A DNA stretch of 64,000 nucleotides from Bifidobacterium vansinderenii (lineage in GTDB: Bacteria > Actinomycetota > Actinomycetes > Actinomycetales > Bifidobacteriaceae). Shown here one piece after another: positions 46,145-59,614 of the stretch. Both the position numbers and the translations under genes were made by a program. How positions within the stretch are numbered: position 1 is the first letter of the stretch; each line of letters opens with the position of its first letter. The DNA lies in NCBI RefSeq assembly GCF_002234915.1, contig NZ_NEWD01000041.1:21-64020 (forward strand), given 5' to 3'. Below the pieces are notes generated by a model. That model had not been told where the DNA came from. It ran no database searches and was given only the letters and a program-made list of their open reading frames with translations.

Positions 46145-47587
46145 CTATCGTCCCAGACGGGTCAGCTTCAGCGGGTCGAGCACGTCATCCAGAATCTCCT
46201 TGCGGATCCTGCCCTCGTCCACGGCCACGTCATGCACGCTGCGTCCCTCGGCCAACGCCTTGTGTGCGAGTCGCACCGCCTCCTCGTACCCCACGTAGCC
46301 GTTGAGCGACGTGGCCAGCGAAGCGCTGTTCTCCGCGCGCTCCATGCCGATCTTCGCGTTGACGGTGATGCCCTCCACACAGTTGGTGCGCAGCGTATCC
46401 ATGGCATGGGCCAGGATCAGCATGCCGTCGAGCAGCGAATGCACGATCACCGGTTCGAACGCGTTGAGCTGCAGCTGTCCGGCCTCGGCGGCGAACGCGA
46501 CCGTGGTGTCCATGCCCATCACGGTGAACACGCTTTGGTTCACGCTCTCCGGGATCACCGGGTTGATCTTGCCCGGCATGATCGACGAACCGGCCTGGCG
46601 CGCCGGAATATGAATTTCCACCAAACCGGCCTGCGGGCCCGAGGTGAGCAGTCGGATGTCGTTGGCGATCTTGCCTAGGTGCACGGCCAGACGCTTTACC
46701 GCGGACGACGTGTCGACGAAATCGGCCATGTCGCTGGTCGCCGCGATCGCATCATCGGCGGACGTCACGGCAATGCCGGACACGGCGCGCAGTCGTTCGG
46801 TGACGATGCCGCGGAACCGAGCGTCTGCGCAGATGCCCGTGCCGATGGCGGTACCACCCAGATTCACCACTGCAAGACGGTCGATCATGTCGGAAAGCCT
46901 GCGAGAATCGCTGGCGATCGTGGTGTGAAACGCGCCGAATTCCTGGCCGAATGTCATCGGCACCGCGTCCTGCAGCTGGGTGCGGCCGAGCTTGACCACG
47001 TCGGCGGTACGACGGGACAGTGCCAGGAACGACATGGACAGCGCGTCGACGCTGCGGATCAGCGTACGCAGCGCGAAGATCAGCGACAGTCGGGCTGCGG
47101 CCGGATACGTGTCGTTCGTCGACTGGGACTTGTTCACCGTGTCGTTCGGATGAATGACCGAGTATTCACCACGCTCATAGCCGCCAAGTTCCAGCGCGCG
47201 GTTGGCGATCACCTCGTTCATGTTCATGTTCGTGCTCGTGCCGGCGCCGCCCTGCAGCACGTCGACCGGGAACTGATCGTCGAACATGCCGGCGTACACG
47301 TCCTTGCACGCGCGTTCGATCAGGCGTCCCTGTTCACGGGTGATGCCTCCCAGCGCCACATTCGCCTGGGCGCAAGCCTGCTTGACGAGCGCGTAGGCGC
47401 GGATCAGCTCCGGGTGATGACTAACGGGTACGCCGGAGATGGGGAAGTTCTCGATGGCTCGTTGCGTGTGAATACCCCAGTAGACGTTTGCGGGAACCGG
47501 CAGCGTGCCGATACAGTCCTTCTCGATGCGGGTGGTGCCGTCGTTGTTGTTCATACGTACCGTGTCGGTCAGGATCGCAGCGGTCAT
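46145..47587 (-). CDS. aspA: aspartate ammonia-lyase
   Basis: 480 residues; the ATG follows GGGAGGAAT. It deaminates aspartate to fumarate. It belongs to the fumarase/aspartase superfamily: GAGTSTNMNMNEVIANRALELGG, SQSTNDTYPAAARLSL, LGRTQLQDAVPMTFGQEFGAF and the mobile catalytic loop GSSIMPGKINPVIPESVNQ with its Ser. The MNMNE form and the N-terminal GTLPVPANVYWGIHTQRAIENFPISG favour aspartase over class II fumarase. Bifidobacteria have an incomplete TCA cycle, so fumarate supply is a plausible role. A LysR gene is divergent with a T-N11-A box between them. Confidence 0.9.
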   Translation of the reverse strand: MTAAILTDTVRMNNNDGTTRIEKDCIGTLPVPANVYWGIHTQRAIENFPISGVPVSHHPELIRAYALVKQACAQANVALGGITREQGRLIERACKDVYAGMFDDQFPVDVLQGGAGTSTNMNMNEVIANRALELGGYERGEYSVIHPNDTVNKSQSTNDTYPAAARLSLIFALRTLIRSVDALSMSFLALSRRTADVVKLGRTQLQDAVPMTFGQEFGAFHTTIASDSRRLSDMIDRLAVVNLGGTAIGTGICADARFRGIVTERLRAVSGIAVTSADDAIAATSDMADFVDTSSAVKRLAVHLGKIANDIRLLTSGPQAGLVEIHIPARQAGSSIMPGKINPVIPESVNQSVFTVMGMDTTVAFAAEAGQLQLNAFEPVIVHSLLDGMLILAHAMDTLRTNCVEGITVNAKIGMERAENSASLATSLNGYVGYEEAVRLAHKALAEGRSVHDVAVDEGRIRKEILDDVLDPLKLTRLGR

Positions 47588-51121: not shown

Positions 51122-51141
51122 GCCGGGGGAATACCCCCGGC
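51122..51141. other. strong isolated hairpin in a 254-bp intergenic gap
   Basis: A perfect 8-bp stem GCCGGGGG / CCCCCGGC with a 4-nt loop (aata) and no T-tract. The gap (51016-51269) between the DUF1304 gene and the export operon is AT-rich and contains no credible gene. Confidence 0.6.
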
Positions 51142-51269: not shown

Positions 51270-52367
51270 TTACCGTTCTTTGAAGTAGGTGAAGAGGTGT
51301 CGTTCTCGGATATGGAGCGTGGCGGCTGTGGTGGCGAGTAGGTAGGCGGTGCTGGTAGTGATGGTGGTTTGTATGGCGTTGAGGGTGATGGTGGTTCGGT
51401 CGGTGGCGTCGATGAGGAGTCTGGCGGCGGTCATGTCGATGGGCAGGCTGATGGCGGTGGCGAGCAGGATGGTGATGCCGGTTTCGATGATGATTTGCGT
51501 GGCGAGTGCGGGTTTGGGGACGCCGCAGTGCAGTGCGGAGGCGATTTCGAGCCGGCGGCCGCGTATGAGCAGGTATCCGATGGCGAGGGCGATGAGCGCA
51601 CCGCAGGCGGGCAGGATGCGTGTGGAGCGTTGCCGGTAGAGGGTTTGTCCGTCGAAGTCGTCGCCTTTGGTGGTGTTGAGCTGGCTGAGGGTGGGTGCGT
51701 CGTCGCCGGTGGTTTTCGCGTTCGGGGTGAGGGTGGACCAGAGGGCGTCGCGGGTCTGGCTGGTTTGCGGCCAGGTCTTGGCCCAGCAGGCGTCGAACGT
51801 GCTGGTGGCGGGTGTTTCCTCCATGAGCGCGTACGCGTATCCGGGGGTGCGTCCGTCGTCGGGGTATTGGTAGACGCCCTTGACGTGTGCGGTGCGCCCG
51901 TCGGCGAGGCCGATCGTGCCGCCGGTGGTGGTGCCGAGCGTTTCGGCGATTTGTTGGGATGCGATCAGTCCGGTCGTGTTCGCGTCCTGTTTGGCGTCGA
52001 GGAGTTTGGCCAGTCCGGGGGTGATCTGGTAGAGGGGCGTGGTGGTGTCGGGCAGGGCCGCGAGGGTGAGCGGGTCCGCCGTGCGGATCGCTCCGGCGGC
52101 CTGGACGCCTGTGAGACTGGTGAGGCGTTCGCAGGATGCCGCGTCGATGCCGTCGGGCGCGTTGAGCACGAGGATGTCGGCCCCGGACTGCCGGTATGCG
52201 CTTGCCTGGTCGAGGATGGCCGAGCCGGCGGCGATGTCCATGACGCCCGTGCCGGCGGCGGTCAGGGCCAGGGCGAGGACGGCCGGGGCGAGGCGGGCGG
52301 CGCCGCTGGTGATGGAACGCCATGCCTCGGAGATGACGGAGGTTGCTTTCATCGTGGTGTGGTTCAT
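51270..52367 (-). CDS. MacB/FtsX-type ABC transporter permease
   Basis: 365 residues; the start overlaps the ATPase stop (ATGA, minus strand). One N-terminal membrane helix (APAVLALALTAAGTGVMDIAAG), a ~200-residue extracytoplasmic domain, then three helices (ILPACGALIALAIGYLLIRG, IIIETGITILLATAISLPI, and one near ITTSTAYLLATTAATLHI) give the 1+3 topology of type VII ABC (MacB, LolC/E) permeases. These transmit force to an external substrate or adaptor. It is the last gene of the operon. The substrate is unknown. Confidence 0.8.
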   Translation of the reverse strand: MNHTTMKATSVISEAWRSITSGAARLAPAVLALALTAAGTGVMDIAAGSAILDQASAYRQSGADILVLNAPDGIDAASCERLTSLTGVQAAGAIRTADPLTLAALPDTTTPLYQITPGLAKLLDAKQDANTTGLIASQQIAETLGTTTGGTIGLADGRTAHVKGVYQYPDDGRTPGYAYALMEETPATSTFDACWAKTWPQTSQTRDALWSTLTPNAKTTGDDAPTLSQLNTTKGDDFDGQTLYRQRSTRILPACGALIALAIGYLLIRGRRLEIASALHCGVPKPALATQIIIETGITILLATAISLPIDMTAARLLIDATDRTTITLNAIQTTITTSTAYLLATTAATLHIRERHLFTYFKER

Positions 52368-52966
52368 TGGTAGTTCTTCAGGTCGATGATGTCGGTGCAT
52401 GCGTCGCGCGTGTTCGGGTCGTGGGTGGAGACCACGACGATCGTGTCGTTGCGGGCGATGCGGGAGAGTGATTCGCTGACCGTGGCCGCGGTGTGCATGT
52501 CGAGCTGGGCGGTGGGTTCGTCCACGAGCATGAGCGAGGGTTGGGCGGCGAACGCGCGGGCGAGCATGAGGCGCTGGGCCTCGCCGCCGGACAGTTCCGC
52601 GAACCTGCGGTCGGCGACCCGTGTCAGGTTGAACCGGTCCATGAGCGTGCGCGCCTGTTCCTCGGCCTCGCGGCGCGGGAGCCCCCGGGCGAGCAGGGGC
52701 AGGCTGACGTGGTCGATCGCGGTACGCTGGGCCACGCCGTGCGGGTTCTGGAAGATCCAGCGCATCGAGTCGATGCCCTGACGGGCCACCCGGCCTTCGG
52801 CGGGCGTGGTCCAGCCGGCGATGATGCCGAGCAGCGTGGACTTGCCCGCGCCGCTCGGCCCGGTCAACGCGTACACGTGTCCGGGCATGAGGCTTGCGGT
52901 CAGATCGTGGAACAGGAGCGGGCCGTCGGCGTACCGGTGGCCGACGTGGCCGAGGTCAACGCGCAT
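52364..52966 (-). CDS. ABC transporter ATP-binding protein (LolD/MacB-type)
   Basis: 200 residues, a single compact nucleotide-binding domain. Walker A is TGPSGAGKSTLLGIIAG, then Q-loop WIFQNPHGVAQRTAIDHVSLPLL, signature AELSGGEAQRLMLARAF, Walker B LMLVDEPTAQLD and H-loop VVVSTHDPN. It overlaps the adaptor gene by 11 bp upstream and the permease by 4 bp downstream, so all are co-translated. Confidence 0.92.
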   Translation of the reverse strand: MRVDLGHVGHRYADGPLLFHDLTASLMPGHVYALTGPSGAGKSTLLGIIAGWTTPAEGRVARQGIDSMRWIFQNPHGVAQRTAIDHVSLPLLARGLPRREAEEQARTLMDRFNLTRVADRRFAELSGGEAQRLMLARAFAAQPSLMLVDEPTAQLDMHTAATVSESLSRIARNDTIVVVSTHDPNTRDACTDIIDLKNYQ

Positions 52967-54056
52967 CGCACGCCGCCTGTCCCGGATCGGCCTTGATGCG
53001 CGCGGGCGCCTTGCCGTCGATCGTGACCAGCGTGCGGCCCAACGAGCTGCCGGCCACGTGCGCCTTGACGCTCGTGCCGTCGGTCGCCACCACGCACCCG
53101 TCGCTGCCCTTGAGCCCGGTGAGCGCGGCCGCGGGCACCGAATACACGCCGATCGGCTCCTTGAGCTTGTAGGTCACGGTCACGCTCGTGACGTCCTCGC
53201 CGTCCTTGCGCGCGCCCGTGTACGTGGACCATCCGGCCATCGCCTGCAACGCGGCCGTGTCCGACACGATGCCGTCGTCGCCGATGGGATAGTCCCGGCC
53301 GTTGATCTCGACCACGCGATCGCCTTGGATGCGGCCGTCCGGCAGGGACGCGGCCTTGACCGACGCGACCCCGGCCAGGCTGCGGAACGCGGGCGAATCC
53401 GTCGAATCGCCGGTCACGGTCGAACCCAGCGACGCCGCGCACGACACGCTCATCGCCTGTGCGGGCAGCCACACCGCCAACGCGCGGGAGAACGCGCCCT
53501 GCTGGACCCTGGCCGTCGCCGCGGCCGTGCCGGCGTTCGTCGCGTACAGGCGCCGCCACGCGTCCCACGTGGCCCAGTCGAACACGCCCGACCGGGAGCC
53601 CCCGTAGCCGAGCGCGGCCAGCTCGTCCTGCAACGCCGTCACGTCGTCGCCCTTGTCCCCGTACGCCAGATCACGATACAAGGGCGTGTCCGTGTGCAGA
53701 CTCACCAGAGGAGTGCCGTCCACGTCGTACTCGTGCGAGCCCGAACGCACCACGCCGTCCGCGGGACACGACGCGAACGTGACCCTGCCTGACACCGGGA
53801 ACGCGACCCCGCCGGCCGGCGATGCCGTCACGTCCACGTTCAGGGAACGCGCGTCGTCGAAATCCTCCGACCCCAACGCGAGACTCCCCGCATCCGGGGA
53901 AGCCGACAGGGACGGCGGCGTCGCCATCCGTTCCAACCCCACGGCCAATCCCATGCCGGCCGCCAGACACGCGACCATGCACGTCGCCACGAACCCCACG
54001 CCGTTTACCCGACGACGCGTGCGGGCACCGTTCTTTCCCGATCGAAACACGAGCAT
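52956..54056 (-). CDS. membrane-anchored efflux adaptor with peptidoglycan-binding domain
   Basis: 366 residues. The ATG at 54056 is preceded by GAGAGGGGG. One N-terminal signal-anchor helix (GVGFVATCMVACLAAGMGLAVGL) is followed by an extracellular region with a PG_binding_1-like module in the middle (LAYGDKGDDVTALQDELAALGYGG...FDWATWDAWRRLY). C-terminal beta segments such as VTVTYKLKEPIGVYSVPAAALTGL and CVVATDGTSVKAHV resemble HlyD/MacA adaptors. It would tie the ABC permease to the cell wall in a monoderm. It carries four cysteines after the anchor. The assignment rests on domain order and operon context. Confidence 0.72.
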   Translation of the reverse strand: MLVFRSGKNGARTRRRVNGVGFVATCMVACLAAGMGLAVGLERMATPPSLSASPDAGSLALGSEDFDDARSLNVDVTASPAGGVAFPVSGRVTFASCPADGVVRSGSHEYDVDGTPLVSLHTDTPLYRDLAYGDKGDDVTALQDELAALGYGGSRSGVFDWATWDAWRRLYATNAGTAAATARVQQGAFSRALAVWLPAQAMSVSCAASLGSTVTGDSTDSPAFRSLAGVASVKAASLPDGRIQGDRVVEINGRDYPIGDDGIVSDTAALQAMAGWSTYTGARKDGEDVTSVTVTYKLKEPIGVYSVPAAALTGLKGSDGCVVATDGTSVKAHVAGSSLGRTLVTIDGKAPARIKADPGQAACDAR

Positions 54057-54066
54057 CACCCCCTCT

Positions 54067-54708
54067 CTACTTGCTCGGATTCGCCAGGCACTGGGAGAAC
54101 GCATCCGACGACGTGTCCAGCTTCGACGACCCCTCGGGCTTGCCCATCTCGGTCAGGTAATCCTGCTTCGTGAACGAGTCCGGCACCAGCTTGCGTCGCT
54201 TCAGGCAACCCACGACCAGTTCGATCTCGTCCGCGTTCGACGGGTTCTGCACCATACGCTCGTACAGGTCGCGGATCTGCAGGTTCGTGCCCTTCGCGCA
54301 CGCCATGCTGTCCTCGTTCGCCTTGGCTGAATCATAGTTGTCGTCCGTGTTCATGTGTTCCTGCATCAACCCGGTGGACTGGTCCGTGTCAAACTCCACG
54401 TCATCGCCCTTGGCGGCCATGCACTCCTGGTACTTCTCGTTCGCCTCCCGGTAATCCGACTCGCTGATCTTGCCCGCCTTGACCGCGCGCTCCAGCACAC
54501 CGCGCTCGAAATCGCTCGACGCCGACTGCAACGCCTGCTTCAACTCCGCCTCATACGACGACGATTCGGAAGACGACGAAGACGAGGAGGAAGCCCCGTC
54601 CGACGCGCCGGCATTCCCGGAACCCGGCATCGAACACGCCCCCAAACCCAACACCACCGACAACACGCCGGCAGTCGCGACCACGCGCAGCATCCGCTTC
54701 AACAGCAT
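54067..54708 (-). CDS. Cys-containing lipoprotein of unknown function, first gene of the export operon
   Basis: 213 residues; AAGGAG lies 10 nt before the ATG. A lipoprotein signal is present with lipobox LGLGAC (Cys25), then a polySer linker and a mainly helical domain. Four further cysteines occur as paired motifs (YQECMAAKG, SMACAKG, VVGCLKRR, FSQCLANP), probably two disulfides. I recognise no named family, though similar Cys-helix lipoproteins occur beside ABC/two-component genes in Actinobacteria. It lies 11 bp upstream of the adaptor and faces away from the response-regulator gene. A sensor, receptor or immunity role is possible. Confidence 0.7.
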   Translation of the reverse strand: MLLKRMLRVVATAGVLSVVLGLGACSMPGSGNAGASDGASSSSSSSSESSSYEAELKQALQSASSDFERGVLERAVKAGKISESDYREANEKYQECMAAKGDDVEFDTDQSTGLMQEHMNTDDNYDSAKANEDSMACAKGTNLQIRDLYERMVQNPSNADEIELVVGCLKRRKLVPDSFTKQDYLTEMGKPEGSSKLDTSSDAFSQCLANPSK

Positions 54709-54882
54709 GATGATGTGCTCCTTTCGTGTGAACATTGACTGTGACGGGAACACACCGTAAAAGACGGTTCGATGGGTTTGGGCGGTTTCGACCCGCTTCC
54801 GACCGTTTTTGACCGATTTCCGACCTCGTTCGCCACGGCCGATATGATGTGCCGCAGTCAATCAACCGGAAAGGAGACGCCG

Positions 54883-55539
54883 ATGCGCGTGCTGGTCGTC
54901 GAAGACAACGTGAACCTCGCCGATGTGGTCGGCATGGGGTTGCGTATGAAGGGCTTCGACACGACGGTCGTCTACGACGGACGAGACGCGATCGACGAAC
55001 TGGACGGAAGCCAGTGGGACCTGCTGATCCTCGACCGCGATTTGCCCGGCGTGCATGGCGACGAGATCTGCCGACGGCTGCGGGCGCGACGCGATCCTGT
55101 TCACATCCTCATGCTCACCGCCGCCTCCCGCACCGACGACATCGTGCAGGGACTGGGACTCGGCGCGGATGATTACCTGACCAAGCCGTTCGCGTACGCG
55201 GAGCTGCTCGCCCGTGTCGAAGCAGTCCAGCGGCGGCTTGGCCTGGCCGATACCGGACTGTTCGTGCGAGGCGGGTTCCGGGCCGATTTCCGCACCGGTG
55301 ACATCAGCATGAACGGCGAGCCATTGCGCTTCGGCCAACGCGAGCTCGCCGTGCTGCGCATGCTGGTGGAGGCGCATGGTGCAGTGGTGGGTGTCGATCG
55401 GTTATACGACGAGGTCTGGAAAGACGATCACGCACGTACGAAAAACATTGTCAAAAGCACCGTGTACACGCTGCGCTCCAAGATCGGCGACCTGGACATC
55501 ATCGAGACCATACCCGGACAGGGATACCGCATATCATGA
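54883..55539 (+). CDS. OmpR-family response regulator of the export cluster
   Basis: 218 residues. AAAGGAG precedes the ATG at 54883. The receiver domain has VVEDNVNLAD, phospho-Asp51 (LLILDRDLPG), MLTAASR and YLTKPFAYAEL. The winged-helix domain has LRFGQRELAVLRMLVEAHGAVVGVDRLYDEVW and KNIVKSTVYTLRSKIG, ending IPGQGYRIS. It overlaps the kinase gene by ATGA. The 170-bp divergent region before the lipoprotein operon makes that operon the natural target. Confidence 0.92.
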   Translation: MRVLVVEDNVNLADVVGMGLRMKGFDTTVVYDGRDAIDELDGSQWDLLILDRDLPGVHGDEICRRLRARRDPVHILMLTAASRTDDIVQGLGLGADDYLTKPFAYAELLARVEAVQRRLGLADTGLFVRGGFRADFRTGDISMNGEPLRFGQRELAVLRMLVEAHGAVVGVDRLYDEVWKDDHARTKNIVKSTVYTLRSKIGDLDIIETIPGQGYRIS

Positions 55540-56804
55540 ACCAACAGCACACCACACGCGAGCCACGTCCGCGCATTCTTCGCCCATCGCAATGGTCGAC
55601 GCGAGGCCGTCTGACCGCCACGATCGTCATCGCGTTCCTGCTGCTGACGACCGCCGTCACCGCCGGCACGTTCCTCATCGTGAACCGGCAACTGTCCACC
55701 GTAACGGTCGGCGGCATCGACACGAGCACGGACTCCGAAAGCGCGGACCAGTCGCTCCGTCAACCATCGTCAAACGCTCCCGACGGCGACGATTCCGGCT
55801 ACACGTCCATCCGCGTCAATGAGGACAGGGAAGACGGACTGTCGCTCAAGGCGACGGCGGGCGATGCCCGTACACGCGATCTCGTGCTCGCCGCCGCCGT
55901 CGCGCCGATCCTCGTGTTCGGCGCGCTGGCGGCCATCCTCACATGGACCATCGCCACCAACAGTCAGAAACGCATCAACATGGTGGCTAGGCAGATCACG
56001 ACCGCGGACGGGCCGCTGTCCATACGCCATGCCGTCAGCATCCCGGAACGCAACGACGAGGCCACGACCATCGCCAACGCCTACAACGTCATGCTCCGCG
56101 ACCTGAACGACTCCATCGAGCGGGAGAAACAGTTCATCGCCAACGCATCCCACGAACTGAAAAACCCGCTCGCCGCCACCTCGGCCGCCCTCGAAATCCC
56201 ACTCGACGCGGGATTGTTCGACGACTTAACTCGACCATTCGTGCAGAAAGCGATCGAAGCCAATCGTAGCGGCTCGGCGCTTGTGCTCCGCTTGCTTGAA
56301 CTCGCCAGCATCCAACATCTCGACAGTGCAGACTTTACCGACGTTGACCTTGCCGAGATCGTCGCCAATGTTCTTGACGCGGAACATGATGTTATTGGTG
56401 AATTCACGATAACGACGTCTCTTATACCTGTGACACTACGGGCAGATCATACGCTCGTTCATCGGCTGGTTGAGAACCTTATTCTTAACGCTGCGCAACA
56501 TAACATTTCTGGTGGCAGCATTGACATCGTCACTGGAATGGAGCATGACGACACCGGAGCCAGCTATGCAATACTTGCGGTCACCAATACTGGCAAAGAT
56601 CTCACCAAGATCGATTTGACGGAACTACTCGCTCCGTTCAACCGCGGTCCCAACAGTAGAATCAACAACAAGTATGAGACTCCCAATCACGGGCTCGGTC
56701 TATCCATATGCGATGAGATAGTTCGTCTCCACCACGGCACCATGAATCTAAAAGCCAACCCACAAGGAGGGCTGATGGTCAACGTACATTTGCCTGACCG
56801 CTAA
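55536..56804 (+). CDS. sensor histidine kinase of the export cluster
   Basis: 422 residues. It has an N-terminal membrane helix (ATIVIAFLLLTTAVTAGTFLIV), a ~70-residue external loop, a second helix (LVLAAAVAPILVFGALAAILTWTI), a HAMP-like linker, HisKA (FIANASHELKNPLAATSAALEI, His206) and HATPase_c (HRLVENLILNAAQHN, NHGLGLSICDEIVRLHHG). From about base 56225 (residue ~230) to the end the GC content falls to about 48%, against above 60% before, with many A/T-ending codons. The frame is intact, so it looks like a recombinant gene with an acquired ATPase half. Confidence 0.9.
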   Translation: MNQQHTTREPRPRILRPSQWSTRGRLTATIVIAFLLLTTAVTAGTFLIVNRQLSTVTVGGIDTSTDSESADQSLRQPSSNAPDGDDSGYTSIRVNEDREDGLSLKATAGDARTRDLVLAAAVAPILVFGALAAILTWTIATNSQKRINMVARQITTADGPLSIRHAVSIPERNDEATTIANAYNVMLRDLNDSIEREKQFIANASHELKNPLAATSAALEIPLDAGLFDDLTRPFVQKAIEANRSGSALVLRLLELASIQHLDSADFTDVDLAEIVANVLDAEHDVIGEFTITTSLIPVTLRADHTLVHRLVENLILNAAQHNISGGSIDIVTGMEHDDTGASYAILAVTNTGKDLTKIDLTELLAPFNRGPNSRINNKYETPNHGLGLSICDEIVRLHHGTMNLKANPQGGLMVNVHLPDR

Positions 56805-57312: not shown

Positions 57313-57942
57313 TCATCGGGTGACGGTCCTGCTCTTGGCCCGTGCCTGATGCTCGTAATGGTCGACGAGCGGGAGGAACAGTTCGTCTACCGTGGCGATG
57401 ATGTCCGCTTCGGACAGTGGGCGCATGTCGCGCAGGATGATCGCGCGGCCGAGTTCTCCGGGCATGCGCAGCAGCGATTCCGGCAGTTCGCAGGTGATGT
57501 CGCCGCGCGCCCGCGCGTTGTCGATGGCCATCATGATGCTGGGCTGGTCGCTGATCATCGTGCGTTCGTACAGTTCGTGCGCGCTCACGCCGAGCCAGCT
57601 GGCGTAGACACCGAACTTGGCCAGCGCCATCACCGCGTCGGACTGTTTGCGATTGAGTTGCAGGAGGACGGAGATGACGTCGCCTCTGAGTGTGCCGGTA
57701 TTAGGCCGTTCTATGACGGCGTGGATGCGATGTTGTTTCATGGCGGCCACGAACAGTTCCGTACGATTCGACCATCGTCGGTAGAGCACCGGTTTGCTGG
57801 TATGAGCTCTGGCGGCCACGTTGTCGAAGGTGAACTCCTCGGCGCTGCACGTGGACAGCTGCTCCCAAGCGGCCTCCAGAATGGCCGTTTCCAAGGCCTT
57901 GCCTCGACGGCGTGTCTGCTTCGGTGTGGCGTGTTCTCCCAT
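57313..57942 (-). CDS. TetR-family transcriptional repressor
   Basis: 209 residues. The ATG at 57942 is preceded by GGAG at 6-nt spacing; upstream ATGs at 57948 and 57954 are alternatives. The N-terminal helix-turn-helix is AILEAAWEQLSTCSAEEFTFDNVAARAHTSKPVLYRRWSNRTELFVAAM. The C-terminal ligand domain is helical (TetR_C-like, PLSEADIIATVDELFLPLVD). It is divergent from a DHA2 efflux gene, and two copies of a 20-bp operator lie in the 151-bp intergenic region. The ligand is probably a pump substrate. Confidence 0.92.
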   Translation of the reverse strand: MGEHATPKQTRRRGKALETAILEAAWEQLSTCSAEEFTFDNVAARAHTSKPVLYRRWSNRTELFVAAMKQHRIHAVIERPNTGTLRGDVISVLLQLNRKQSDAVMALAKFGVYASWLGVSAHELYERTMISDQPSIMMAIDNARARGDITCELPESLLRMPGELGRAIILRDMRPLSEADIIATVDELFLPLVDHYEHQARAKSRTVTR

Positions 57943-58007
57943 GGTCATCTCCATATGCTGCGTGGCATGGGCGCTGTGTCTTGGTGATCGTTCATGCCGT
58001 CGTTTAC

Positions 58008-58079
58008 AAGATACCACGGCGTTTCTTATTCGCGGATATCTATAATCGTGGGTGTTTATAAGAAACTTATTGGTATCTT
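58008..58079. promoter_or_regulatory. divergent TetR/efflux promoter with two operator copies
   Basis: Two 20-bp sites, AAGATAC-N6-GTTTCTT (58008-58027) and its inverse AAGAAAC-N6-GTATCTT (58060-58079), have identical half-sites in mirror orientation, making a 72-bp palindrome centred at 58043.5. A consensus -10 TATAAT lies between them at 58041-58046, so both sites flank the efflux promoter. Confidence 0.75.
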
Positions 58080-58093
58080 AAAGGGATTGGGGC

Positions 58094-59614
58094 ATGAACG
58101 ATACGGATGAGAAAACGAAGAGCCTGAACCGTTCCATGGTCTGCTTGTGCGCGGCCGAACTGGTGATGATGATCAACACCACCGCGTTCAACGTGGCGTT
58201 GCCGAACATCGCCGAGTCGTTCGGGGCGAGCATGGCGGAACAGCAGTGGATCGTCTCCAGCTACAACCTCGTATTCGCGGCCGTGGTGCTGCTGGCCGGA
58301 TTCCTCGGTGACCGACTCGGTCATCTGAAGACCATGATCGTCGGACTGGCCATGTTCGTCATCGCATCAGTTATCGGTCTTGCAGCAGGGAATGTACCGG
58401 TGCTGCTCGTCTCGCGATCGATCATGGGAGCCGGCGCGGGCGTGGTCATTCCGATGGGGCAGGCGCTGCTCGGCATTCTGTTCCGGGACTCCGAATTGTC
58501 TCGCGCCATGACCGCATGGGCGATAGCCGGCACCTTGGGCGTGCCGTTCGGGCCGCTCGTCGGTGGAGCCCTCACCGCGACATTGGGATGGCGCGGCATC
58601 TTCGGATTCGACGGCGTGGTGTTTCTCGCCGTGATCGTGGTCATCCACATGAACGTTTCGCAGGTGAGCGCGTCGCATGAATCCCGGTCGTTGCATATGC
58701 CATGGATGTCGGTGGCGATGATGTTCGCCGGATTCACCCTGTTCTCGGCCGGCCTGGTCAATGCGCAGCATGGTGTGCTGTCCATGGACGCCTGGATTCC
58801 GATGACGGTCGGCGTGGCGCTGATCGTGGGATTCGCGTTGCATGATCGTGCATCCCGCAATCCACTGATGGAGCTTGGACTGATGAAGGATCCGTCGTTC
58901 GCCGCCTGCGCGCCGGCGTTGATGATGCTGAACTTCTCGATGTACGGCATCATCTTCATCATGCCCGCCTACCTGGAGACCGTGTTGCGCCATGACGCGC
59001 TGATCGGAGGAATGCTGCTGATGCCGCTGGTCGTCGCATCCATCGTGGGGGCGCGGATGAACGATTGGATCGTCTCCCGGATCGGCTCGCGCGGCACGAG
59101 TCTGATGGCCTTGGGATGTCTGGCCGTCGGCATGCTGACGATCGGCGTCGCCATGCGATTGCCCGAAGGCATGATGGAGCAGTCGATGGTGATGGTCGGT
59201 CAGATCGTGGCCGGTTTCGGACTGGGCGTAGGCCAGCCGGCAATGCTGACCTGGGCCATGGGAAGGGTGCCTGTCGAACAGTCCGGCGCCGGTTCCAGTC
59301 TGCTGACCGTGTTCCGTCAATTCGGGTCCATCATCGGTGTGGGAATCTTCGGCAGCATACAAAGCGGACTGTATGCGACCGGGTTCCAGAGTCTCGCGCG
59401 GACCGCCGGGCTGTCCTCGCAATCCGCCGGATCCGTGATGCTGGACTTCCAGCAGGCGGCCGGATTCACGGACGCAACGGGCGACGCGATACGGCAGGTG
59501 GCCTCCCACGCCTATGAATCCGCGATGCTCGGCAGCTTCGCCACAGCCGCCGCGATCATCGCCGTCACGCTCGGCGTCGTCGCGCTACTATCCCGTAGGG
59601 TGTCGACGAAGTAA
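58094..59614 (+). CDS. DHA2-family multidrug efflux MFS transporter 2
   Basis: 506 residues with about 14 membrane segments; AAAGGGATTGGGG precedes the ATG. Motif A is LAGFLGDRLGHLKTMIVGL, motif C is WAIAGTLGVPFGPLVGGALTATLGWRGIF, and a late GFGLGVGQPAMLTWAMGRVPVEQSGAGSSLLTVFRQFG follows. It is a separate protein from the pump at 1069 (different signature spacing). Control by the divergent TetR protein is strongly suggested by the flanking operators. Confidence 0.9.
   Translation: MNDTDEKTKSLNRSMVCLCAAELVMMINTTAFNVALPNIAESFGASMAEQQWIVSSYNLVFAAVVLLAGFLGDRLGHLKTMIVGLAMFVIASVIGLAAGNVPVLLVSRSIMGAGAGVVIPMGQALLGILFRDSELSRAMTAWAIAGTLGVPFGPLVGGALTATLGWRGIFGFDGVVFLAVIVVIHMNVSQVSASHESRSLHMPWMSVAMMFAGFTLFSAGLVNAQHGVLSMDAWIPMTVGVALIVGFALHDRASRNPLMELGLMKDPSFAACAPALMMLNFSMYGIIFIMPAYLETVLRHDALIGGMLLMPLVVASIVGARMNDWIVSRIGSRGTSLMALGCLAVGMLTIGVAMRLPEGMMEQSMVMVGQIVAGFGLGVGQPAMLTWAMGRVPVEQSGAGSSLLTVFRQFGSIIGVGIFGSIQSGLYATGFQSLARTAGLSSQSAGSVMLDFQQAAGFTDATGDAIRQVASHAYESAMLGSFATAAAIIAVTLGVVALLSRRVSTK

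Follow-up and report, generated by a model that had tools for sequence, protein, structure and literature searches.

A lipoprotein–adaptor–ABC transporter cassette of Bifidobacterium vansinderenii as a candidate bacteriocin-immunity module

What purpose is served in a bifidobacterium by a lipoprotein gene followed by the genes of an adaptor-dependent pump, with a two-component system reading away from them? The question is raised by positions 51,270 to 56,804 of a 64,000-nucleotide stretch of B. vansinderenii DNA (contig NZ_NEWD01000041.1, assembly GCF_002234915.1; hereafter, the window) from a 3.1 Mb genome of the family Bifidobacteriaceae (G000). A first-pass annotation of the letters alone described four linked minus-strand genes with a divergent two-component operon and suggested that they detect and export, or neutralise, an envelope-active compound. 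All six genes are indeed present, with their motifs intact. With moderate confidence, the four-gene cassette may be regarded, from its gene content and neighbours, as an actinobacterial bacteriocin-immunity (possibly export) module. The features concerned are the following, the minus-strand genes being designated LIPO, ADAP, ABC, and PERM.

54067–54708, minus strand: LIPO, lipoprotein, 213 amino acids (aa), lipobox LGAC, lipid Cys 25
52956–54056, minus strand: ADAP, membrane-anchored adaptor, predicted MacA/HlyD-like and wall-binding, 366 aa
53457–53687, minus strand: peptidoglycan-binding-like domain within ADAP (aa 124–200), from profile and structure alignment
52364–52966, minus strand: ABC, MacB/FtsE/LolD-like ATPase, 200 aa
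51270–52367, minus strand: PERM, probable FtsX/MacB-type permease, 365 aa, 1+3 transmembrane (TM) segments
54883–55539, plus strand: OmpR/PhoB-type response regulator, 218 aa
55536–56804, plus strand: sensor histidine kinase, 422 aa, two TM segments
54791–54825, minus strand: putative operator of the response regulator, tandem GGTC direct repeats in the divergent promoter
51122–51141, minus strand: terminator-like hairpin 3′ of PERM, GCCGGGGG-TATT-CCCCCGGC; hairpins of this kind are hardly more frequent than by chance (5 against 3.5 expected)

A recurrent gene unit and its bacteriocin-family neighbours

The order LIPO-ADAP-ABC-PERM is retained in most of 40 loci fetched around adaptor or lipoprotein matches (fetched loci bear L-numbers below), with identities down to ~23%, and recurs across Actinomycetales at 23–35% identity. 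An independent scan of GTDB species genomes with the permease alignment only yielded 80 loci, whose hosts are Bifidobacterium, Pseudoscardovia, Cryobacterium, Agreia, Agromyces, Rathayibacter, Microbacterium, Actinomyces, Schaalia, Cellulomonas, metagenome-assembled genomes of Propionibacteriaceae, and others. A hidden Markov model of the lipoprotein places LIPO within 8 kb in 74 of these 80 loci and directly upstream on the same strand in 65. LIPO also lies within 7 kb of 47 of the 51 strong PERM places in an evenly drawn set of 396 Actinomycetales genomes, and is present in every genome of this set with a strong PERM (38/38). The co-occurrence search proposed along with the original description has thus revealed strong LIPO–PERM linkage, and not the generic, unlinked ABC genes named there as the contrary outcome; the cassette is a conserved unit, and more than chance association.

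The same counts bear on the idea of a LolCDE-like system for lipoprotein trafficking or envelope maintenance, in which the pump would act on the LIPO lipoproteins themselves. LIPO is a constant and often multiplied partner, and ABC resembles LolD/FtsE. Such a role is nevertheless very improbable, given that 41 of the 119 LIPO places in the 396 genomes (against 75 PERM places) are far from any pump, that L105 and L117 bear pumps without LIPO, and that the patchy distribution (38/396 genomes) argues against a housekeeping function. The excess of LIPO over pumps, the LIPO arrays of three to five copies (L107, L112, and L118), and the peptide–LIPO pairs without a pump (see below) would be expected of immunity proteins of differing specificity. 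By analogy, the arrays of lipoproteins, together with the lipoproteins and cassettes that stand as orphans, resemble the immunity repertoires known from other bacteriocin systems.

In a second Bifidobacterium clade of cassettes, a single pump is surrounded by four or five lipoprotein genes, of which one has the opposite orientation (L107, positions 93–2104, L111, L112, L116, L118, L123, L134, L136, L166, and L168); upstream of the L107 cassette lies a two-component system of the LuxR/NarL type instead of the OmpR type. The window's own genome has a partial second permease without a lipoprotein (G000:C34:50513-51061, L283), as well as two orphan four-cysteine lipoproteins off any cassette, on G000:C27 (L270) and G000:C19 (L087).

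The classical lactococcin 972 locus consists of the bacteriocin gene (TIGR01653/PF09683), a DUF1430 protein with seven TM segments (TIGR01654), and an ABC ATPase (TIGR03608). Lactococcin 972 is a lipid II-binding inhibitor of septum formation (PMC9964109, PMC4055356), and the orf2-orf3 ABC genes of its producer have been assigned to immunity (PMC9964109, PMC4055356, PMC11796350). In L104, L119, L132, and L138, LIPO is immediately preceded by a lactococcin-972-family gene in the same orientation (TIGR01653 33–42 bits, cut-off 32.1), and a fifth such neighbour is found in L108 from Bifidobacterium santillanense (TIGR01653 43.9 bits, PF09683 2e-11). Five of 80 loci compare with ~0.001 expected by chance, an estimate based on 24 PF09683 places per ~1.3 Gb (the 396 genomes), the same strand, and 900 bp per locus. 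In the reverse test, two of the 24 PF09683 genes, from two different families (L211 and L213), are directly followed by LIPO-ADAP-ABC-PERM; their peptides pass PF09683 and miss the TIGR01653 cut-off. Next to most other PF09683 genes are those of a large protein with multiple TM segments, similar to TIGR01654 in the loci scanned, and of an ABC protein, the latter scoring 229–244 bits with TIGR03608 where scanned, slightly below the cut-off of 254.85. Judged by gene order, the cassette takes the position of the lactococcin-972 immunity genes. In L201, L202, and L204, the lactococcin-972 locus has a short version of the TIGR01654 protein (439 aa, ~4 TM segments) beside the ABC gene, which is a third transporter architecture for this family.

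Other small peptides of the Sec type also precede LIPO, including those in the window's nearest relatives (L091, L093, L097, L101, and L103). The peptide of cluster 18 occurs in 4 of 151 Bifidobacteriaceae genomes, all four of which have a close cassette, and its gene immediately precedes LIPO in those loci that were read. The peptides of cluster 271 (L110, L121, L125, L131, L139, and L148) and of L113 are only suggestively lactococcin-972-like (hhalign probability 88%, with the signal peptide helping). Several of the peptide families adjoining the cassette have no Pfam match, and the Sec-secreted peptides of cluster 271 and L113, ~70 aa when mature, are candidate bacteriocins outside Pfam. 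L125 is the B. thermophilum locus with a cluster 271 peptide, and B. thermophilum RBL67 has been called bacteriocinogenic (PMC4215022). Two peptide–LIPO pairs without a pump are present in L268 (3950–5258 and 6241–7497), near which a repeated transposase-like fragment of an open reading frame was noticed.

Several observations weigh against an immunity function. L104, L119, and L138 are related Microbacteriaceae, so that the five lactococcin-972-family neighbours represent fewer than five independent events, and a recognisable bacteriocin-family neighbour is found in a minority of cassettes only. A heuristic screen for open reading frames with signal peptides gave hits more often upstream (27/66 loci) than on the opposite strand (12/66) or downstream (6/65), which speaks for the link to peptides, but its background is substantial; on inspection, some of the 27 proved to be background themselves, e.g., those inside regulator genes of L095, L096, L098, and L115. 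The cluster 18 peptide, which adjoins the cassettes nearest to that of the window, has no counterpart among known families; its profile lacks similarity to lactococcin 972, and it is not demonstrably lactococcin-972-like. Finally, what genes B and C do had not been verified by experiment even for lactococcin-972 loci (PMC11796350).

A peptide gene that stands first in an apparent operon and encodes a Sec signal, next to an adaptor with a wall-binding-type domain, may also be taken as a sign of a secretion or maturation unit, which would move the Sec-translocated, folded peptide from the membrane surface across the wall with LIPO as a chaperone, comparable to the transport of a periplasmic peptide toxin by MacAB-TolC. 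Such a unit is improbable: peptide-less orphan cassettes are common and horizontally kept, the usual lactococcin-972 loci do without LIPO and ADAP, and lactococcin-972-type peptides are thought to exit by Sec with no need for a special exporter (PMC11796350). In the immunity reading, the substrate is likely, from the neighbouring genes, to be a peptide bacteriocin, which in several loci would be of the lactococcin-972 type. Bile salts are a less likely substrate, although nothing was found that spoke for or against them directly. Positive co-occurrence and linkage to bacteriocin families thus partly support the originally suggested handling of an envelope-active compound, the identity of the compound being deduced from the neighbours.

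The lipoprotein and the predicted wall-held pump

Besides the lipid cysteine, LIPO has four cysteines (96, 137, 168, and 207; mature positions 72, 113, 144, and 183), which had been noted in the window copy and are invariant in an alignment of 79 diverse family members; two disulfides are plausible. The AF2 model is compact and mostly helical (pLDDT 89.9). The description of the lipoprotein as unrecognised stands, as no family was matched in Pfam, NCBIfam (above cut-off), PHROG, or a profile search of PDB sequences. The sole NCBIfam match, PplA, is at chance level (17 bits against a cut-off of 325), and this identity was rejected. Foldseek of the model against the PDB gave nothing significant (best E 0.7), and a structural second look by VIA gave a best Z of 4.4 over 62 residues, with unrelated proteins; hence, a fold for LIPO is neither claimed nor excluded.

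ADAP has a single N-terminal TM segment (23–41) and two near-invariant C-terminal cysteines (321 and 363). Its AF2 model (pLDDT 89.7) matches CusB, MexA, and AcrA in Foldseek with E-values of 1e-8 to 1e-6, MacA with 7e-6, and also BesA, which points to an adaptor fold of the MacA/HlyD type; the VIA superposition on 5nik_D is loose overall (Z 6.7, 223 residues, root-mean-square deviation (rmsd) 8.1 A). That the adaptor carries a peptidoglycan-binding module was part of the first-pass annotation and is borne out by a PG_binding_1-like stretch (Pfam E 2e-4, 22.2 bits, just below the 23-bit cut-off), and by a structural match of model residues 124–200 to the SleB N-domain 6tci (Z 5.6, rmsd 2.6, 70 aligned). 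In the ADAP profile, this domain (124–181) lies between two lipoyl matches (72–108 and 185–240), and therefore would occupy the place of the TolC-docking α-hairpin of MacA-type adaptors; neither the ADAP sequence nor its model appears to contain such a hairpin.

In ABC, the Walker A, LSGG signature, Walker B, and H-loop motifs are all intact. It matches ABC_tran with E 2e-27, its best generic matches include AztA, FtsE, and LolD, and it belongs to the MacB/LolD/FtsE group, scoring 118 bits with TIGR03608. PERM begins with a TM segment (29–47), followed by an extracytoplasmic domain of ~200 aa with two invariant cysteines (79 and 194) and by TM segments at 250–268 and 292–310. The last segment is below the hydropathy cut-off in the window copy and hydrophobic across the family; the proposed 1+3 topology is therefore credible. 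The match of PERM to FtsX is weak (E 8e-4, below cut-off), and among 29 family members, five match FtsX and one matches MacB_PCD, the TM pattern fitting MacB; no NCBIfam model, TIGR01654 included, matched PERM.

The four genes had been described as overlapping. This holds for ADAP/ABC (11 nt) and ABC/PERM (4 nt), which are likely to be translationally coupled, while LIPO and ADAP are 10 nt apart and would overlap only if the ADAP start at 54104 were used. The G+C content at 52001–54000, in the adaptor and ABC genes, reaches 71% against ~62% elsewhere in the window. A function in anti-phage defence was rejected after a PADLOC scan, which gave nothing for LIPO, ADAP, or PERM and only generic ATPase matches for ABC. 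A prophage origin was rejected as well, since there are no PHROG matches except endolysin peptidoglycan-binding ones.

The proposed mechanism is as follows. Small Sec-secreted bacteriocins, lactococcin-972-like or of other families, would have their targets on the outer side of the membrane, lipid II being the known example. The membrane-held LIPO, probably stabilised by two disulfides, may capture the peptide on the surface of the cell. ADAP, ABC, and PERM would assemble into a pump of the MacAB type. ATP hydrolysis would move its extracytoplasmic domains, and these would push the captured peptide away from the membrane and into the wall or across it. In place of the hairpin by which adaptors of Gram-negative bacteria dock on TolC, ADAP would use its wall-binding domain to hold the pump against the peptidoglycan.

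The window copy and its regulation

No TIGR01653/PF09683 gene accompanies the cassette in the window, while one is present in L104, L108, L119, L132, L138, L211, and L213. LIPO and the response regulator gene are separated by only 174 bp, and no remnant of a peptide gene was found in this gap; neither were the cluster 18 peptide or PF09683 found in the whole genome at the thresholds used. Since the bacteriocin gene is missing, the window copy is best read as an orphan bacteriocin-immunity (cross-resistance) set. The cassette DNA is 91–96% identical between the window and other bifidobacteria, and a chromosomal gene of the window (46145–47587) is only 66–69% identical to its counterparts in genomes with close cassettes, which indicates that the cassette moves between lineages. 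B. scaligerum has two cassettes: L091, 96.3% identical to the window over 54689 to 51270, possesses a peptide gene and a different two-component system, and L096, 92.4% identical over the cassette and the two-component system, has no peptide gene. Plasmid carriage was rejected, as the plasmid search returned only partial matches of under 60% identity, limited to the wall-binding region of ADAP.

The response regulator and the histidine kinase retain the expected D/H/N/G-box residues, and the kinase has an extracytoplasmic loop of ~67 aa between its TM segments. Both genes read away from the cassette on the plus strand, as originally described. A closely related kinase adjoins 14 of the 80 cassettes, so that the two-component system cannot be counted among the constant components. 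The designation "self-contained module" therefore applies to the four-gene unit; the two-component system is lineage-specific, and the peptide gene of many relatives is absent here. The divergent promoter of the window contains direct GGTC repeats with a period of 10–11 nt, as do the promoters of 13 of 15 related cassettes linked to the two-component system (scores of 11–12 of 12), with or without an intervening peptide gene; L101 reaches a score of 10, and no repeats are present at the second L094 locus. In five more distant linked loci, the repeats were not found. This pattern fits a control of both the cassette and the two-component system by the response regulator through the putative GGTC operator, by which the orphan cross-resistance set of the window would be induced.

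A copy with a two-component system and no peptide gene may also represent a general envelope-stress exporter, i.e., a MacAB-like pump directed against cell-wall-active antibiotics or host peptides (bacitracin, nisin, and LL-37) that would operate in the manner of BceAB or YknWXYZ and lack a dedicated bacteriocin partner. The apparent MacA/MacB-like character of ADAP and PERM agrees with this, as do several non-bifidobacterial cassettes without an obvious peptide neighbour. Such an exporter is considered unlikely; it would leave unexplained the repeated position directly behind bacteriocin-family genes, the pump-less peptide–LIPO pairs, and the multiple lipoproteins per pump.

Beyond the kinase gene and a GNAT acetyltransferase gene, a TetR regulator is divergent from an MFS multidrug-type transporter (57313–59614), probably an independent drug-efflux pair.

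Comparison with known systems

The statement that no named system has exactly this set agrees with a literature search, in which no paper describing the cassette was found, subscription journals and RefSeq annotation being outside its reach. No description was found of the lipoprotein family, of a wall-binding adaptor acting in such a role, or of the association with Sec peptides, whether lactococcin-972-like or other. It may tentatively be proposed, with the doubts slightly prevailing, that the cassette represents an undescribed immunity class of Actinomycetales, in which four-cysteine lipoproteins serve many unrelated Sec peptide bacteriocins together with a peptidoglycan-anchored MacAB-type pump and are exchanged by bifidobacteria in the form of orphan resistance cassettes under the control of a sensor. 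If so, the LIPO family and the cassette would provide a genomic marker for actinobacterial bacteriocin loci missed by current family models. They would further suggest how bifidobacteria compete with and become cross-immune to one another, and would make it possible to test whether a MacAB pump can be anchored to the wall of a cell with a single membrane.

With the lactococcin 972 locus, the cassette shares the small Sec-signal bacteriocin gene followed by transporter genes, the peptide being in some cassettes a bona fide member of the family. Unlike that locus, it has no TIGR01654 protein and adds the lipoprotein and the wall-binding adaptor, and the cassette ABC proteins score 107–118 bits with TIGR03608 against 229–244 in classical loci; the window has neither a TIGR01654 protein nor an above-cut-off TIGR03608 match.

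MacAB-TolC and the MacAB-like exporters of Gram-positive bacteria, such as YknXYZ and YvrPON, resemble the cassette in the predicted MacA/HlyD-type adaptor fold, a putatively FtsX/MacB-like permease, and an ABC protein of the same broad group. The cassette differs from them in the peptidoglycan-binding-like domain in place of the TolC-docking hairpin of MacA, in the dedicated four-cysteine lipoprotein, and in the weak Pfam matches of its permease. BceAB/BceRS are detoxification modules that likewise combine a two-component system with an FtsX-type ABC transporter against cell-wall-active peptides, but the kinase of the window, with its ~67-aa loop, is not an intramembrane sensor, PERM has ~4 TM segments and not 10, and LIPO and ADAP are additional.

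Lantibiotic immunity depends on the LanI lipoprotein and the LanFEG transporter under NisRK-type regulation. The likeness, on paper only, consists in an immunity lipoprotein, an ABC pump, and induction by a sensor kinase, whereas the cassette has an apparently different permease plus an adaptor. LIPO matches no lantibiotic-immunity family in Pfam or NCBIfam, from which a fast-evolving LanI could escape in a sequence search, and no lanthionine machinery was seen among the neighbouring open reading frames. The principle of an immunity lipoprotein with an ABC pump and a two-component system is thus known from lantibiotics, and the predicted pump is of a MacAB-like type.

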